DNA from: Acidobacteriaceae bacterium
GTDB taxonomy: Bacteria; Acidobacteriota; Terriglobia; Terriglobales; Acidobacteriaceae
Direction: 5' to 3'
NCBI GenBank assembly: GCA_003139095.1
Contig: PLHW01000072.1
Location: 85,813-149,812, forward strand
DNA: 64,000 nt
Shown: in pieces, positions 22,002-28,883 of the stretch
How the letters are laid out: each line of letters opens with the position of its first letter
Numbering within the stretch: position 1 is the first letter of the stretch
Translations under genes and position numbers: made by a program
Notes under the pieces: generated by a model
Told to the model about the DNA's origin: nothing
Database searches by the model: none
Seen by the model: only the letters and a program-made list of their open reading frames with translations

Positions 22002-23687
22002 TCACCGCGTGCGCGGTTTGCGCCGGCCCACGCGCGCCAGAATGCGTCGAACTTTCTTCGGCGAGATCGACAGGCGGTCTGCCACACGGGACACTTTGCG
22101 ACCCTCGCGCTCCCACACGCGGGCGATGACGATGTCGGCGAATTCTTCGCTGATCTGGCGAAACGATTTGTCGCCCACCTGTCCCTGAGACCAGGCTTTG
22201 AGAGCCGGATCGACGCTTCCCTTGCGAAGAACGCGGGCGCGCAGCGCTTGCAGGTCCTGCCAGATGCTCTCGGGCTGCGTCTCTCCGCAGGCCTCGCGCG
22301 CCAGGTCGTAAGACTCGCGCGCGGCTTCGAGGTTATCGAAAAACGAATTGCAGTGCGTGAGTCCCTGCCAGAGATAGGCCGTGGCCAGCAGCATGTGGTG
22401 CTGCGTGTGTTTGGCCAATTCGATTGCCTCTTGACTGAAATCGAAAGCACGGCGGGCATGATTGCCGGAATCGGTACCGGCGATTTCATCCTCCACCTTT
22501 GCATTTTCGATCATGCACTGCAAAATGCGCGAGCGGCACATGAGGATGTAATCCTGCTTCGCCTCGGCAAGTTTGTAGGCGGAGGCCGATTCCCGCTCGG
22601 CCTGCGGGAAGTCGCCGCTATCAAGATGAAGATAGGCCGCGTTGATGTAGACGGTGCCGCTGCCGTGGTGGTTTGGGCGGTGCTCGTAAATCGCGTGAGC
22701 GGCGGCGAGATGTTCGAGCGCCTCACGGCGCAACTGCGAAAGCCGCCGGCGATCGTCCGCGCGCGCCAAACTGGCGGAGGGGGCAGGCGTCTCGCGCGAA
22801 ATTGTTGTCGTTTTCGCGGAATCTGGGTGATCCTTGCGGCGGCGGTTCACGCCGAGATCGACCCTTTTCTGCAACTGGAGAGCGATGCCGCGTTTGGCAA
22901 GCGCCATGTTGGCAAGCGAGCGCGCCAGATTGGGATGCTGCGGATCGCGCCGCCGGTAGTGCTCGATGGCTTTTTCAAAGAACTGAATGGCCTTGTCGAA
23001 GAGACTTTTGCGGCGCGCCATGCGCCCGTGGAACGACTGGATGTTGCCCAGCGTCACATAATCGTCGGTCTCGCGAAGCGCATTTTCGGCATCTTCGGAG
23101 ACGCGGACCGCTTCGTTCCACTTGCCCTGCTGAAACAGAATCCATCCTTCGAGGACTTGCATGACAGCAGCCATGCGCGGATGACTGAGTTCGCGCGCCA
23201 GGTCGCGTCCCCGGCCGGTAAAGATGAGGGCTTCGTCGTAATCGCCGCGACGGCGCAGGCAGCGGCCTTTCCAGTAATTCGCGATCGACAACAGAAAGCG
23301 ATTGTCCAACTCGGCGGAGAGTCCAAGAACAAAATCAAAATGAGGGATGGCGGTCTCGATTGCCTCTTCCGCCATCGCGATCATGCCTTCGGTCATGCGC
23401 AGGCAGAGGTAGTCGGAGATGGAGAGGTGCGAGCGCGACGCGAAACGCTGAAGAAGTTCTTTGACGGAGGGCGACGCGCTGAAGCCGATGTCGCTCCAGA
23501 TGGCAACCAGCACGAGCAGGCGAGCGGCGTTTGGCTGGCGGGAATCGAGGGAGCAGATCACATCGCGGTGGGCTCGCAGGCAAGCCAGGCCGCGCTCGAT
23601 TTCGCGCGCGGCCACATGCTTTTGAAGTTGCGAGAGTAAGGCTTCGTCAATGCTCGTTTTGGCGGGCGACCCGCCCCGTGTGCCCAT
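22002..23687 (-). CDS. TPR protein with C-terminal Fis-type HTH, candidate glyoxylate-shunt regulator
   Basis: 561-residue soluble protein. Residues about 100-480 are made of degenerate tetratricopeptide-like helices (SIANYWKGRCLRRRGDYDEA, LGNIQSFHGRMARRKSLFDK, NLARSLANMALAKRG, ATAYLWQGLTHCNSFFDN). The last 45 residues form a Fis/NtrC-type helix-turn-helix (VWEREGRKVSRVADRLSISP, KKVRRILARVG). It starts 10 bp downstream of the malate synthase stop in the same direction, so the two are almost certainly co-transcribed. It has no sigma-54 AAA domain and no receiver, so it may sense through protein contacts. A role in controlling the shunt is inferred from position only. Confidence 0.75.
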   Translation of the reverse strand: MGTRGGSPAKTSIDEALLSQLQKHVAAREIERGLACLRAHRDVICSLDSRQPNAARLLVLVAIWSDIGFSASPSVKELLQRFASRSHLSISDYLCLRMTEGMIAMAEEAIETAIPHFDFVLGLSAELDNRFLLSIANYWKGRCLRRRGDYDEALIFTGRGRDLARELSHPRMAAVMQVLEGWILFQQGKWNEAVRVSEDAENALRETDDYVTLGNIQSFHGRMARRKSLFDKAIQFFEKAIEHYRRRDPQHPNLARSLANMALAKRGIALQLQKRVDLGVNRRRKDHPDSAKTTTISRETPAPSASLARADDRRRLSQLRREALEHLAAAHAIYEHRPNHHGSGTVYINAAYLHLDSGDFPQAERESASAYKLAEAKQDYILMCRSRILQCMIENAKVEDEIAGTDSGNHARRAFDFSQEAIELAKHTQHHMLLATAYLWQGLTHCNSFFDNLEAARESYDLAREACGETQPESIWQDLQALRARVLRKGSVDPALKAWSQGQVGDKSFRQISEEFADIVIARVWEREGRKVSRVADRLSISPKKVRRILARVGRRKPRTR

Positions 23688-23697
23688 GCATGACGTT

Positions 23698-25266
23698 CTA
23701 GTCTAATAAGTCGTAACTGGCAAGCGTCAGGAAGTCGGGAAATTCTTTGCCGGTCATCAGAGTGTCAAGGAGCTGGGCGGCCTTCTGCGTGGCGTTGTTC
23801 GCGCCTTGGGCGACGGTCGCTTCGAGTTCCGCCGCGCGGTCGTGAATTATTTTCTTCACCATACTTTCCGTCACGACTTGGCCGTCGCTCATGCGCGCGC
23901 CATGGCGCACCCATTGCCAGACCTGGGCGCGGCAAATCTCGGCCGTCGCCGCGTCTTCCATCAGGTTGTAGATCGGCACGCAGCCCGATCCGCCGAGCCA
24001 TGACGCGAGATACTGCAGGCCCACGTCGATATTCCAGCGCAGGCCTTTTTCCGTGATTTCGCCGGTGGGAACTTCGAGCAGATCCTTCGCCGTGATCGTC
24101 CGGTCGATGCGCGGCTTTGCGATCTGATTCGGCTCGGGCATGTACTGATCGAAAATTTGTTTTGCAATGGGAACGAGGCCCGGATGTGCGACCCAGGTGC
24201 CATCGTGGCCGGCGCGCACCTCACGCAGTTTGTCGCGGCGAACTTTTTCGAGCGCCTCTTCGTTGGCGGCGGCGTCGTTGCGGATGGGAATCTGGGCCGC
24301 CATGCCGCCCATCGCGTGAATGCCGCGCCGGTGGCAGGTTTGAATGAGCAACTCGACATACGAGCTGAGGAAATGCGCCTCCATGGTGACGAGCGAGCGA
24401 TCGGGCAACACGAACTCCGGATGCGCGCTGAATTTCTTGATGAAGCTGAAGATGTAATCCCAGCGGCCGCAATTCAGCCCCGACGAGTGCTCACGCAGCT
24501 CGTACAAAATTTCGTCCATTTCGAAGGCGGCCAGAATGGTTTCGATCAAAACGGTGGCGCGAATGGTGCCGCGCGGAATGCCGAGCTCATCTTGCGCGAA
24601 GCAGAAGACATCGTTCCAAAGGCGCGCTTCGAGGTGGCTCTCCAATTTCGGCAAATAGAAATATGGGCCGGTCCCTTTGTCGATCAGGGCCTTAGCGTTG
24701 TGAAAGAAAAAGAGGCCAAAGTCGAACAGCGAGCCGGAGATCGGCCGGCCGTCGATGCGATAGTGTTTTTCATCGAGATGCCATCCGCGCGGCCGAACCA
24801 CCAGCGTTGCGAGTTTCGCGCCCAGCTCGTAGCGCTTCCCTTCCGGGCTCACGTACTGGATGGTTCCGAGAATTGCGTCGCGAAGATTCTGCTGGCCATC
24901 GATGTTGTTGGACCAGGTGGGCGAGTTCGAGTCTTCGAAATCGGCCATGAAAACGTTCGCGCCCGAATTGAGCGCGTTGATGATCATCTTGCGGTCGACG
25001 GGGCCGGTGATTTCGACGCGGCGATCGACGAGGTCGTGCGGGATCGCGGCAACTTTCCAATTGCCCTGGCGCACCGACTCGGTTTCAGGCAAGAAATCGG
25101 GACGCCAATTGCCGTCGAGCTTTAGCTGAACGACCTTGCGGCGAGCCAGCAATTCCTGGCGGCGGCCTTCGAACCTGGCTGAGAGTTTTGACAGGAACGC
25201 TTGCGCTTCGGAGTTGAGAATGTCGGTCTGCAAGGGAGTTTCCAAGAGTGTGTCTGTGCTCATCAT
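23698..25266 (-). CDS. aceB: Malate synthase A
   Basis: Condenses glyoxylate and acetyl-CoA to malate, second step of the glyoxylate shunt. The 522-residue length is that of the MSA type. Diagnostic segments are [73 protein letters not shown] and [12 protein letters not shown]. The start is the first of two adjacent methionines. It diverges from the isocitrate lyase cluster, and the shared upstream region holds a 21-bp palindrome 41 bp from this start. Confidence 0.96.
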
Positions 25267-25306: not shown

Positions 25307-25327
25307 ACTAGGTCAAATTGACCTAGT
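25307..25327. promoter_or_regulatory. Perfect 21-bp palindromic operator candidate
   Basis: ACTAGGTCAA-A-TTGACCTAGT: two 10-bp arms with one central base, perfectly inverted. It lies between malate synthase and the divergent small ORF/isocitrate lyase, about 40 bp before the malate synthase start. Such symmetry is typical of a dimeric repressor or activator site. The cognate factor is unknown. Confidence 0.75.
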
Positions 25328-25430
25328 GGCCGCGGCGGACCTGGGGATTTGTGCGGCAATGGCGAGTCGGGGTCTACTGCATTCGAGACGCAAAATCTCG
25401 GACGTCAATTCTCTGAGTGGGGTCAATCTG

Positions 25431-25589
25431 ATGACAACGTCGAATTCTACCAACCGCCAAACCAGCAACCCTGATGACACGTTCGTGAATGCGGCATATA
25501 GTCACAGTGTTGCCGTCTTTTCCGCTCTGTATTATCCGTCGCTGGCGGGCAATTGCTGGGACGACGAACTTTTGCCATCGGGAGACTAG
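25431..25589 (+). CDS. Small ORF upstream of isocitrate lyase sharing its C-terminal peptide
   Basis: From the ATG at 25431 it codes for 52 residues, beginning MTTSNSTNRQTSNPDDTF and ending NCWDDELLPSGD. A GTG at 25326 and an ATG at 25359 would give longer forms. The final DDELLPSGD closely matches the last residues of the isocitrate lyase encoded just downstream (SDELMPSGD), while codons differ at synonymous positions (gaa/gag, ctt/ttg, cca/ccg, gac/gat). This argues for conservation at protein level rather than a recent DNA copy. No known domain is recognised. A weak GTGGGG precedes the ATG. It is separated from isocitrate lyase by a hairpin and 71 bp and is probably in the same transcript. 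Confidence 0.6.
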   Translation: MTTSNSTNRQTSNPDDTFVNAAYSHSVAVFSALYYPSLAGNCWDDELLPSGD

Positions 25590-25614
25590 TGCGGGATGGC
25601 GACGAAATCCCGCA
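25590..25614 (+). promoter_or_regulatory. Hairpin between small ORF and isocitrate lyase
   Basis: Directly after the small ORF's TAG stop, TGCGGGAT and ATCCCGCA form a perfect 8-bp stem with a 9-base loop (ggcgacgaa). It is followed by AAAAG rather than a T-run, so it is not a classical terminator in this direction. It could be an mRNA processing or translational-coupling element, or the stem of an attenuator tied to translation of the small ORF. Confidence 0.55.
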
Positions 25615-25660
25615 AAAGTCGTAGCATTAAGTGCACAGCCATTCACGGAGGCGTAAGGTC

Positions 25661-28012
25661 TTGACCAGCGTTGACCACCAGGAAACCACCAACACTACCT
25701 TCGAGCAGCAGGTCGAAGCCGCCAAGCAATGGTTTGCGAGCGCGCGTTTTAATGGCATTGTCCGCCTGTACTCGCCGCATCACGTAGCCGAGCAGCAAGG
25801 CACGATACGCGGCGACTACATGGTCGCGCGGCAGGCAGCCGAGGAATTTTACGCGCGCCTGCGCGAACTTTTTGAGCAGCGGCGGCAAATCACGACCTTC
25901 GGCCCGTACTCACCGGGCCAGGGCGTGATGATCAAGCGCATGGGCATCGAAGGTATTTACCTGGGGGGATGGGCAACGTCGGCGAAAGGCTCGGTGAATG
26001 AAGATCCCGGTCCAGACCTGGCGAGCTATCCGCTGAGCCAGGTGCCCGACGAAGCGGCCGTGCTGGTGCGGGCGCTGCTGGCCGCGGACCGCAATCAGCA
26101 TTTTGCGCGCGCCCGCATGACCGAACAGCAGCGCAAGGCGACGCCCGCTGTCGATTTTCGTCCGTTCATCATCGCCGACGCCGACACCGGCCACGGCGGA
26201 GACGCGCATGTGCGCAATCTGGTTCGGCGCTTTGTTGAGGTCGGCGTGCCGGGTTATCACATTGAAGATCAGAAGCCGGGCGCGAAAAAGTGCGGGCACC
26301 AGGGCGGCAAAGTTTTGGTCGCGGGAGACGAGCAAATTCGCCGGCTGAATGCGGCGCGTTTGCAGCTCGATATCATGCGCGTGCCGGGCATTATTGTGGC
26401 GCGCACCGATGCCGAGTCGGCGACCTTCCTGGAAAATGTCAGCGACGAGCGAGATCAACCATTTATTCTCGGCGCGACCAATACGGATGTGCCAACCTAC
26501 CGCGTCGGTTACCTCGCCATTCTGAAGAAGCTGGCCGAACTCGGCGCCCAGGAGGTATATGGACACATGCTGTTCGCGGTCTCTGCGAGCGAGTATCGCG
26601 CGGCGTTTGCGTGGCTGGAGCGAGTTGGATTGATTCCGGCGATTGCCTCGACCGCGAAGGCGATGCGCAATGCTTCGCCAACCGAGATTGAAACCGCGCT
26701 CGACAAGATGGACACGATGTACATGGAAGCATGGCAATCCGAAGCCAAGCTGAAGACCTTTGGCGGAGCGGTCGCCGACGCGATCCAGGCGCGCGAAGAC
26801 GATGGCGAACGCTTCGACATGACGCTGGAAGAGTGGCGGGAGTTTGCCAAGCACGCTTCGTTCTACGAGATTCGCGAGCGGGCGCGCGCCATGGGGATCT
26901 ACGTGGTTTGGGATTGCGAGCTGCCGAAGACACCGGAAGGCTTCTACCAGGTACAGGGCGGCCTTGACTACGCCATTGCCAAGTCGCTTGCGGTCGCTCC
27001 CTTTGCGGACCTGCTGTGGATGGAAACCAAAACGGCGGACCTGGAAGATGCCGAAAAGTTTGCGCACGCCATCCACGCGCAATTTCCCGACAAGATGCTG
27101 GCCTACAATCTGTCGCCATCCTTTAATTGGGATACGACGGGCATGAGCGACGAGGAGATGAGAAGTTTCCCCGAAGAACTCGGCAAGCATGGCTTCGTCT
27201 TCAACTTCATCACGTATGGCGGACATCAGATCGATGGCCTGGCATCGGAGGAGTTCGCAACCGCCCTCAAACAGGACGGCATGCTGGCTCTGGCGCGTTT
27301 GCAGCGCAAGTTCCGGCTGCTGGAATCGCCGTATCGCACGCCGCAAACGCTGGTGGGCGGACCTCGCCTGGATGGCGCTCTCATGGCCTCATCCGGACGC
27401 ACCGCCGCAACCAAGGCCATGGGCAAGGGATCGACGCAGTTCCAGCACCTTGTGCAAACCGAGATTCCACCGCGGCTGCTGGAAGAGTGGCTGGCGTTGT
27501 GGGGCGAGCAGTGGGAGTATCCGTCGAAGATCCGGGTGCAACTGCGCCCGCATACGGCCGGTTCTGAATTATTGGAACTGAGCGTATTCAGCGAACCGCA
27601 AAAGCAAAAGCTCGCGAACATTATTTTCGCGAGCTTGCAGGATCGGCGCGGCCGCAATTTCTTATCGGTGCGCGACCAGAATACGTTCATGTCGTTCCGG
27701 CAAAAGCGGCTGATGGCGCTGATTCAGCTGTTCCTGATTCATCGCTACTCGGCCAGCGCAGTGCACTACGTCACTCCCACCGAGGACGTGGAGGGGCAGA
27801 CGCAGAAAATGAAGAGCATCGGAATTTTCTCGGACGTGCACACCGAGGTCGGCCAGATCATCGTGGCGCAGGTCAGCAAGGAAGGCATCGCGGAACTGGT
27901 CAAGCCGGACCGCAAACGCCTTTTGGACTTGATCCGCAAGACGACGCCGGCGGCGACTCAAACCGTAGCCTCTGGCAAAGATTCCGACGAGTTGATGCCG
28001 TCGGGAGATTAA
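25661..28012 (+). CDS. aceA: Long-form isocitrate lyase (AceA2-like)
   Basis: Cleaves isocitrate to glyoxylate and succinate; the long type may also use methylisocitrate. The catalytic motif is KKCGHQGGK (catalytic Cys), preceded by [18 protein letters not shown] and [14 protein letters not shown]. Later segments are [32 protein letters not shown] and [20 protein letters not shown]. At 783 residues it matches the large Icl2 type of mycobacteria, not the 430-residue E. coli form. The TTG at 25661 is preferred because GGAGG stands 9 bp before it; an in-frame GTG at 25631 precedes that site. The C-terminus SDELMPSGD is shared with the upstream small ORF. A strong terminator follows 14 bp after the stop. 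Confidence 0.93.
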
Positions 28013-28026
28013 GACGGCATAAGAAG

Positions 28027-28094
28027 AGCGGGGCTCGATTGCGAAGAAGCCAACAACCATTGGCTGGCTTCGAATTCGAGCCCCGCTTTTATTT
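28027..28094 (+). terminator. Rho-independent terminator of the isocitrate lyase transcript
   Basis: The 12-bp perfect outer arms AGCGGGGCTCGA and TCGAGCCCCGCT enclose an inner stem (cgaag..agccaa with ttggct..cttcg), followed by TTTTATTT. It begins 14 bp after the isocitrate lyase stop. The hairpin is unusually long for an intrinsic terminator. Confidence 0.9.
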
Positions 28095-28115
28095 GGTGGC
28101 ACAGGCTGCAATCCG

Positions 28116-28336
28116 GGCGGCTTCCTGAATCGCCTGTTTGGCTGGGTGTCCCGCTGCTTGGCGGCTCGTTTCAGACGCGCATGTGGCACCACGCGTTTGC
28201 CTGGGGCTTTGTGGTGTTCGCCATCCTGCACGTGTACATCATCCTGTATGACTCCACGCAGTACGGCAACGGACTGATCACCTCAATCATCTCGGGGTAC
28301 AAGTTCTATCAGAAAGGGAATTTCAAGGAGGAATAG
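28116..28336 (+). pseudogene. Broken 3' remnant of a NiFe-hydrogenase cytochrome b subunit gene
   Basis: One frame gives GGFLNRLFGWV (to about 28148) and the next gives PLLGGSFQTRMWHHAFAWGF, FVVFAILHVYIILYDST and GLITSIISGYKFYQKGN, ending at TAG 28336. Together they match the end of HyaC-type cytochrome b (RLFGWV-PLFG-..WHH..HVY..ISTI.SGY), with one base missing at 28146-28150. The N-terminal three-quarters are absent; the homologous stretch starts right after the isocitrate lyase terminator. It is a 5'-deleted and frameshifted relic, unless the frameshift is a base-call error. Confidence 0.75.
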
Positions 28337-28391
28337 AGATCCCGAAAATATTTTCGTGAATTTGTCATCTTCTCGATCTCCAGACCGATCG

Positions 28392-28883
28392 ATGCAAACC
28401 TGCGATCTCAAAGTTCCCCCTGTGCTGGTGCTCGGCTTGGGGAACATCCTGCTCGGCGACGATGGTGTGGGACCGGCGCTGTTGGGGGAAGTGCAAAGGG
28501 TGTACGCGGAAGTTCCGGCGGTAGAGTGCATCGATGGCGGCACTCAGGGATTGGCTTTGCTCGGCCATTTGAGCGGGCGTCAAGCGCTGATCATTCTCGA
28601 CGCGTTTGCCGGCGGCGAACAAGCCGGAGATGTGTCGGTGCTGGAAGGAACTGCGGTGCTGAACTGCGGCGTAACGCGGTCCAGCACGGCGCATGAGGGC
28701 AACGCGGGAGAGTTGCTGGCCACGGCCCAGCTGCTAAACGAACTTCCCGCGCAAGTTTTTCTTATTGGCATTCAGCCGGAGCGGGTGCGCACCGAACTGG
28801 GGCTTTCGGAGGCGGTCGCCAGAGCCCTTCCGCATGCGCTCGCAAAAACCTGCGGCGTGCTGGACCGGGTTCTGAGAGGATAA
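28392..28883 (+). CDS. hyaD: NiFe-hydrogenase maturation endopeptidase
   Basis: Cleaves the C-terminal extension of the hydrogenase large subunit after nickel insertion. Family motifs: VLVLGLGNILLGDDGVGP (first acidic Ni ligand), IILDAFAGG (second), and SSTAHEGN with the histidine at the usual third position. At 163 residues from ATG 28392 the length fits HyaD/HybD; a GTG at 28356 would add 12 residues, and neither start has a clear ribosome-binding site. It follows the broken cytochrome b remnant. No hydrogenase large or small subunit gene is in the window, so its substrate must be encoded elsewhere or it is a survivor of a lost locus. Confidence 0.9.
   Translation: MQTCDLKVPPVLVLGLGNILLGDDGVGPALLGEVQRVYAEVPAVECIDGGTQGLALLGHLSGRQALIILDAFAGGEQAGDVSVLEGTAVLNCGVTRSSTAHEGNAGELLATAQLLNELPAQVFLIGIQPERVRTELGLSEAVARALPHALAKTCGVLDRVLRG

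Follow-up and report, generated by a model that had tools for sequence, protein, structure and literature searches.

A conserved C-terminal peptide is encoded fused to isocitrate lyase or as a free small protein at a glyoxylate shunt locus of Acidobacteriaceae

An isocitrate lyase (ICL) and the small open reading frame (ORF) ahead of it end in the same conserved peptide, and in related genomes of this group of soil bacteria the fused and free forms of this peptide replace each other. Both genes lie in the window, by which we mean the whole 64,000-nucleotide stretch of Acidobacteriaceae contig PLHW01000072.1 that was analyzed. The small ORF ends in DELLPSGD and the ICL in DELMPSGD, and the third codon positions of the two tails mostly differ, both as the first-pass annotation had described. 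Judged from the sequences, the shared tail is more than chance, and its distribution suggests a role separate from that of the enzyme. Our best explanation as a whole, to which we assign a probability of roughly 45%, is that the tail would serve as a docking peptide for a separate protein.

In gene order, the locus comprises a candidate regulator, a TPR protein with a weak C-terminal helix-turn-helix (TPR-HTH; 22005 to 23687, minus strand; TPR_12, E 4e-20), a divergent malate synthase (23698 to 25266, minus strand; PF01274, E 8.1e-118), a 21-bp palindrome, ACTAGGTCAAATTGACCTAGT (25307 to 25327, no strand), which is presumed to be an operator and has variants at related loci, the small ORF (25431 to 25589, plus strand; 52 codons, 52 residues) and a long, ICL2-like ICL (25661 to 28012, plus strand; Pfam PF00463, E 4.6e-120; TIGR01346, E 8.7e-128). 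The tail codons occupy 25563 to 25586 at the end of the small ORF and 27986 to 28009 at the end of the ICL, both on the plus strand. Alignment also revealed a conserved element 5' of the small ORF, GGGGTCTACTGCAT (25369 to 25382, plus strand), that may form part of a promoter. The helix-turn-helix assignment reflects a C-terminal HTH_23 match that falls below the cut-off (E 0.033), and the same C-terminus contains a segment, SPKKVRRIL, that is nearly invariant among 20 aligned sequences. The ICL presumably starts at the TTG at 25661, which has GGAGG ahead of it, with an in-frame GTG at 25631 as a possible alternative. It carries KKCGH at residues 209-213, which we take to be the isocitrate lyase signature, and is by sequence an ordinary member of its family.

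Several features of the surroundings were recorded in their own right. A hairpin with perfect 8-base arms, TGCGGGAT...ATCCCGCA, lies between the small ORF stop and the ICL (25590-25614); G012 has a different hairpin, also with perfect 8-base arms, about 10 bases past its small ORF, and no comparable repeat after the small ORF was listed for G016, G008 or G021. Directly 3' of the ICL, positions 28016-28336 encode a C-terminal piece resembling Ni-hydrogenase cytochrome b (PF01292, E 1.3e-4; below the family cut-off and limited to the end of the profile). A hydrogenase maturation protease comes next (28356-28883; PF01750, E 2.1e-22), so the long ICL may have arrived within or beside a hydrogenase operon.

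We searched 61 genomes with the small-ORF peptide and recovered, besides the window, four clear relatives within the genus (G016, G001, G008 and G012; E 9e-17 to 6e-14), with further copies in G097 and on a public MAG contig, PLHQ01000041 (L180). The last 11 residues, CWDDELLPSGD, are identical in all seven copies, window included. Across these seven, a set from which the divergent free peptides of G021 (ending EESYELLPSGD) and G007 were left out, pS was 0.52 and pN 0.01 over the last 11 codons, and 0.48 and 0.18 over the whole small ORF. The proposal that selection acts on the peptide is thus supported, and the lack of conservation in relatives that would have refuted the first-pass annotation was not found. 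By this measure selection maintains the small ORF as a protein-coding gene. A small-ORF profile run against 24 genus genomes gave seven matches at E 0.01 or better: the window and four further full copies, the variant in G007, and the G014 short ICL at its tail end. This search missed the small ORF of G021. Comparison of the small ORF with Pfam and NCBIfam, at E 0.1 and 0.01, matched no family.

An ICL was present in 19 of the 24 genus genomes (E up to 1e-20), many of which are incomplete MAGs, and all 19 encode the tail. Six carry it on a long ICL (G000, G002, G003, G004, G009 and G021), nine on a short ICL (G001, G005, G006, G010, G011, G013, G014, G015 and G022), and four encode it in trans only, as the free peptide (G007, G008, G012 and G016). 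Among the five genus genomes without an ICL, a loose tail pattern had no match in G018, G020 and G023, the match in G019 reads TGG, and that in G017 ends a 23-codon stretch. Tail-less ICLs also occur elsewhere in G007, G021, G001 and G014, the one in G007 being the only ICL found there and lying on a different contig from the free peptide. A strict rule of one tail per genome was rejected, as the window, G001, G021 and G097 each have two.

On the short, ICL1-like ICLs of the family, the tail takes the form L[LMQ]P[ST]GD and follows a linker that varies in both length and letters. It was present in 25 of 74 rows and absent from 49, and so is dispensable in many species. Three peculiarities of these proteins were noted alongside. 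In the tailed short ICL of G014 (L170:1465-1506) the last codons and stop are tandemly repeated, as PSGD*PSGD*. The linker ahead of the tail often contains a stretch resembling PDA[AG]CQPILG[DE]CP (L083, L085, L091 and others), and this stretch is also found in some tail-less ICLs, such as L099 and L102. Finally, at a site distant from the malate synthase locus, G007 and G021 (L165, L166) each encode a short ICL that lacks the tail and bears a long C-terminal stretch rich in Gly and Asn.

Pattern searches placed the motif on ICLs and small ORFs. In the 24 genus genomes, 30 sites fitted the loose pattern, [LF]-x-P-(S or similar)-G-D-(stop or W), and 22 of these are ICL ends or small ORFs. Three of the other eight read TGG instead of a stop, and five end open stretches of 18 to 49 codons; four of these stretches overlap a longer frame, and the fifth, a 23-codon stretch in G017, lacks both Met and Val. 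A stricter, stop-anchored pattern had 20 matches in 150 family genomes. Of these, 19 fall on an ICL end or a small ORF (one being an ICL-like fragment at a contig start), and the twentieth has no ORF of 15 codons. The class set of 299 genomes included 225 from outside the family, and the sole match among those 225 reads TGG rather than a stop. Such stricter patterns miss variants, for example LQPSGD and EEEIALMPSGD. No other tailed protein was found in the genomes searched by pattern, and the idea that further proteins bear the tail was rejected, the leftover matches looking like chance.

Exchange of carriers was seen among the long ICLs. Of those adjoining malate synthase and/or the TPR-HTH gene, 10 of 10 come with the tail and/or the small ORF: both occur in the window and G021; a fused tail in L173/G002, L174/G004 (where the contig ends before the TPR-HTH gene), L178/G009 (with no malate synthase in between) and G003; and the small ORF directly upstream of a tail-less long ICL in L176/G012, L177/G008, L180 and L186/G016. 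Here, loci (L) were equated with genomes (G) on matching coordinates, and L180 is a 6.2-kb contig only, with a G008-like arrangement. Neither tail nor small ORF was found with any of the ten other long ICLs chosen for the tree, of which six are close relatives from Terriglobia/Acidobacteriota (L175, L179, L181, L182, L183 and L210) and four are more distant; the comparison locus L190 had only 691 bases upstream. The motif was absent from 73 of the 80 nearest long-ICL loci (the best 80 of 583 relatives), which makes the long-ICL body an unlikely receptor for it. As a feature of sequence, the tail is not typical of long ICLs, and it is probably not original to that of the window.

In the long-ICL tree, fused and free states alternate on starred branches, L174 (fused) being sister to L177 (free) with support 99/95. 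The residents of the locus fall into two groups with non-residents between them; the two forks that separate the groups (94/96 and 92/93) are not starred, so the long ICL may have arrived a single time. Tailed long ICLs and short ICLs are about 36-50% identical in matching segments.

To trace the small ORF, we aligned the peptides of the window, G016, G012, L180 and G021, with the last 8 residues left out, to six short-ICL extensions and scored each pair against 500 shuffles. Against the G014 extension, the window, G016, G012 and L180 peptides all beat at least 499 of the 500 shuffles; against the five other extensions, the same four reached 25 of 500 shuffles or fewer in 6 of 20 pairs and were not significant in 14, such that homology to an ICL extension is carried by one of the six tried. 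The G021 small ORF had no significant alignment to any of the six. The G007 peptide matches the G014 extension throughout (0 of 500 shuffles) and looks like the end of a G014-like short ICL whose body was lost in a recent internal deletion. We infer that the small ORF is a retained, split-off short-ICL end, and that long ICLs replaced the short ICL at the malate synthase/TPR-HTH locus.

Two copies of the small ORF lie outside this locus. In G001 and G097 the gene has unrelated neighbors, and malate synthase and ICL are elsewhere. Neither the 12 kb around the G001 copy (C49) nor the 3 kb around the G097 copy (C298) gave a tblastn match to ICL, malate synthase or TPR-HTH, and none of the three was seen among the ORFs listed for 12 kb of G097 and for 9 kb of G001. 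Either copy could be a binning error; G001 has 7% contamination, and among genomes of other genera a copy occurs in G097 alone. A leader peptide of the ICL should always lie directly upstream of it, and these two copies do not. A reading of the small ORF as a functionless remnant or leader of gene replacement, which its apparent derivation from a short-ICL end and the deletion-like G007 copy might imply, is scarcely credible against the purifying selection on the last 11 codons of the ORF (pN 0.01 versus pS 0.52) and the persistence of the gene with its upstream region at unrelated sites in G001 and G097.

The upstream region of the relocated copies retains an imperfect palindrome together with GTCTACTGC, which is identical in 7 of 7 aligned sequences, and both genomes have a TPR-HTH gene. 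More broadly, variants of the palindrome lie 5' of the ICL or small ORF at most loci with that gene. We scored the best site over 21 positions within 450 bases, for which, in the rows with a TPR-HTH gene, shuffled sequence gave a mean of about 16 and a best of 100 between 17 and 19. Rows with a TPR-HTH gene scored 18 to 21 of 21 in 25 of 31 cases, scores of 18-19 also occurring among the best of 100 shuffles. The six lower rows include G016, G021 and G012, in which the site lies further up and the small ORF pushes it beyond 450 bases, while the 450 bases contain no good site in G179, G192 and G135. Where the gene is absent, scores were 19-20 for G006, G004 and G022, which are at contig ends beside the same malate synthase, 18-19 for four others and 14-17 for the rest. 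Use of the palindrome as a genome-wide marker was abandoned because the pattern is too degenerate, the matches listed in 25 genomes being close to the control.

Given these distributions, we propose that the conserved C-terminus, acidic residues followed by L-[LMQ]-P-[ST]-G-D, would be a short docking peptide on a flexible linker. A shared function for the two tails, as first suggested, is supported by their conservation and by the exchange between cis and trans carriers. Long ICLs have been given, or are accompanied by, the tail, and four genomes have the free peptide only; together these make a role that depends on attachment unlikely and suggest that the ICL body is probably not the receptor. 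We therefore consider it likely that the peptide works without covalent attachment to ICL, as a ligand for another protein and not as a tag on the enzyme.

The neighboring TPR-HTH protein is a candidate reader, because TPRs bind peptides and because the palindrome goes with this neighbor. Under this proposal the palindrome would be bound by the TPR-HTH protein, malate synthase, ICL and the small ORF would be under the control of that protein, and the tail would report the amount of shunt product back to it as feedback; that its TPR domain is the reader in such a circuit is possible, though less likely than not. Short-ICL rows comprised 15 with tail and gene, 6 with tail only, 10 with gene only and 36 with neither (Fisher p 2.5e-4); at most four supported independent pairs were available, and on these the association was not significant. 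A rule that the tail tracks the TPR-HTH gene was rejected on this phylogenetic test, leaving only a trend. No TPR-HTH gene was nearby for 6 of 21 tailed short ICLs with known neighborhoods, and none was found genome-wide in those six genomes at E 1e-15; a profile search of eight tail-bearing genomes, which had no positive control, found no TPR-HTH relative. A PDB search with the TPR-HTH profile returned generic TPR proteins, with RapF matching more weakly (E 0.009). Somewhat more tentative is the full scenario, in which the enzyme carries the ligand of its own operon's TPR regulator and thereby reports its own abundance, and in which, upon arrival of a foreign enzyme body, the ligand was kept either fused or as a free peptide of 50 residues.

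Loci that have the tail and lack the TPR-HTH gene, three of which (G168, G187 and G074) adjoin a different malate synthase, raise the alternative that the tail docks on another partner, either malate synthase or a family-wide protein, gathering or regulating the shunt enzymes, with the free peptide taking the same site. Docking tails, that of SSB for example, typically combine a variable linker with a conserved end. A free peptide would nevertheless be pointless for a scaffold unless it competed, and the malate synthases beside tailed ICLs are of two types, about 70% and 33% identical to that of the window; we regard this alternative as unlikely. Less likely still is an action of the tail on ICL itself, through assembly, active-site cover or inhibition, in cis or trans. 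Such an action would suit the presence of the tail in 19 of 19 ICL-bearing genus genomes and in none of the five without ICL, and the position of the free peptide gene directly upstream of a tail-less ICL in G008, G012, G016 and L180, but the tailed long ICLs are too far from short ICLs in sequence (about 36-50% identity in matching segments) for this to sit easily, most of their relatives have no tail, and the very different linker lengths suit an outside partner.

The first-pass annotation had also offered a degradation or localisation tag. Were the tail such a tag on ICL, the free peptide would be a decoy or competitor for the machinery. The C-terminal position and conserved last residues fit such a tag, as do the free and fused copies found together in the window, G021, G001 and G097. 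Nevertheless, there is nothing to tag in G007, G008, G012 and G016, because the only tail found there is the free peptide, and the pattern searches found no carrier of the motif besides ICL and the small ORF; as the tail is apparently functional in cis or trans, a simple tag for ICL is disfavored and we consider it very improbable. Competition between free peptide and enzyme tail, likewise suggested at the outset, is possible in the four genomes where both exist. As a whole, that earlier reading is partly supported.

The locus amounts to a natural experiment in which selection has retained the same short peptide on three different carriers, and this retention allows its function to be tested apart from the enzyme. 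It would also provide a clear example in bacteria of a small protein that arose from the tail of an enzyme and is interchangeable with it. If it is true that the neighbor reads the tail, this would constitute a new route by which enzyme level is fed back to transcription of the glyoxylate shunt.

In the literature surveyed, which comprised listings and the opening lines of abstracts, neither an ICL tail peptide nor a TPR regulator of the glyoxylate shunt is described. The enzymes themselves are ordinary by the family models (PF00463, TIGR01346 and NF011645), and the model NF011645 ends short of the tail, its match on the G015 short ICL extending to residue 444 of 486, ahead of L[LMQ]P[ST]GD. 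RRNPP and Rap proteins are peptide-TPR regulators, and the likeness to them is one of working idea only, a TPR protein beside a short-peptide gene. They differ in that the tail here is also fused to a metabolic enzyme and in that RapF matches the TPR-HTH profile less well than generic TPR proteins do; moreover, the peptide does not always accompany a regulator, given the 6 of 21 tailed short ICLs without the gene nearby. In the neighbor the TPR match is clear and the HTH_23 match, below the cut-off, is C-terminal; RRNPP regulators have an N-terminal HTH. SSB bears a C-terminal docking tail in which a variable linker precedes a short conserved C-terminus, an arrangement the ICL tail resembles, but the tail here also exists as a free gene product and its partner is only a candidate. 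A further comparison is with microproteins, small proteins split from larger ones: here too a small protein shares an interaction segment with a larger protein and looks derived from it. However, the shared part is a C-terminal linear motif rather than a folded domain, and across related genomes the free form and the fused form substitute for one another. We rate the split-off interaction peptide as a known kind, and its exchange between cis and trans as what is unusual here.
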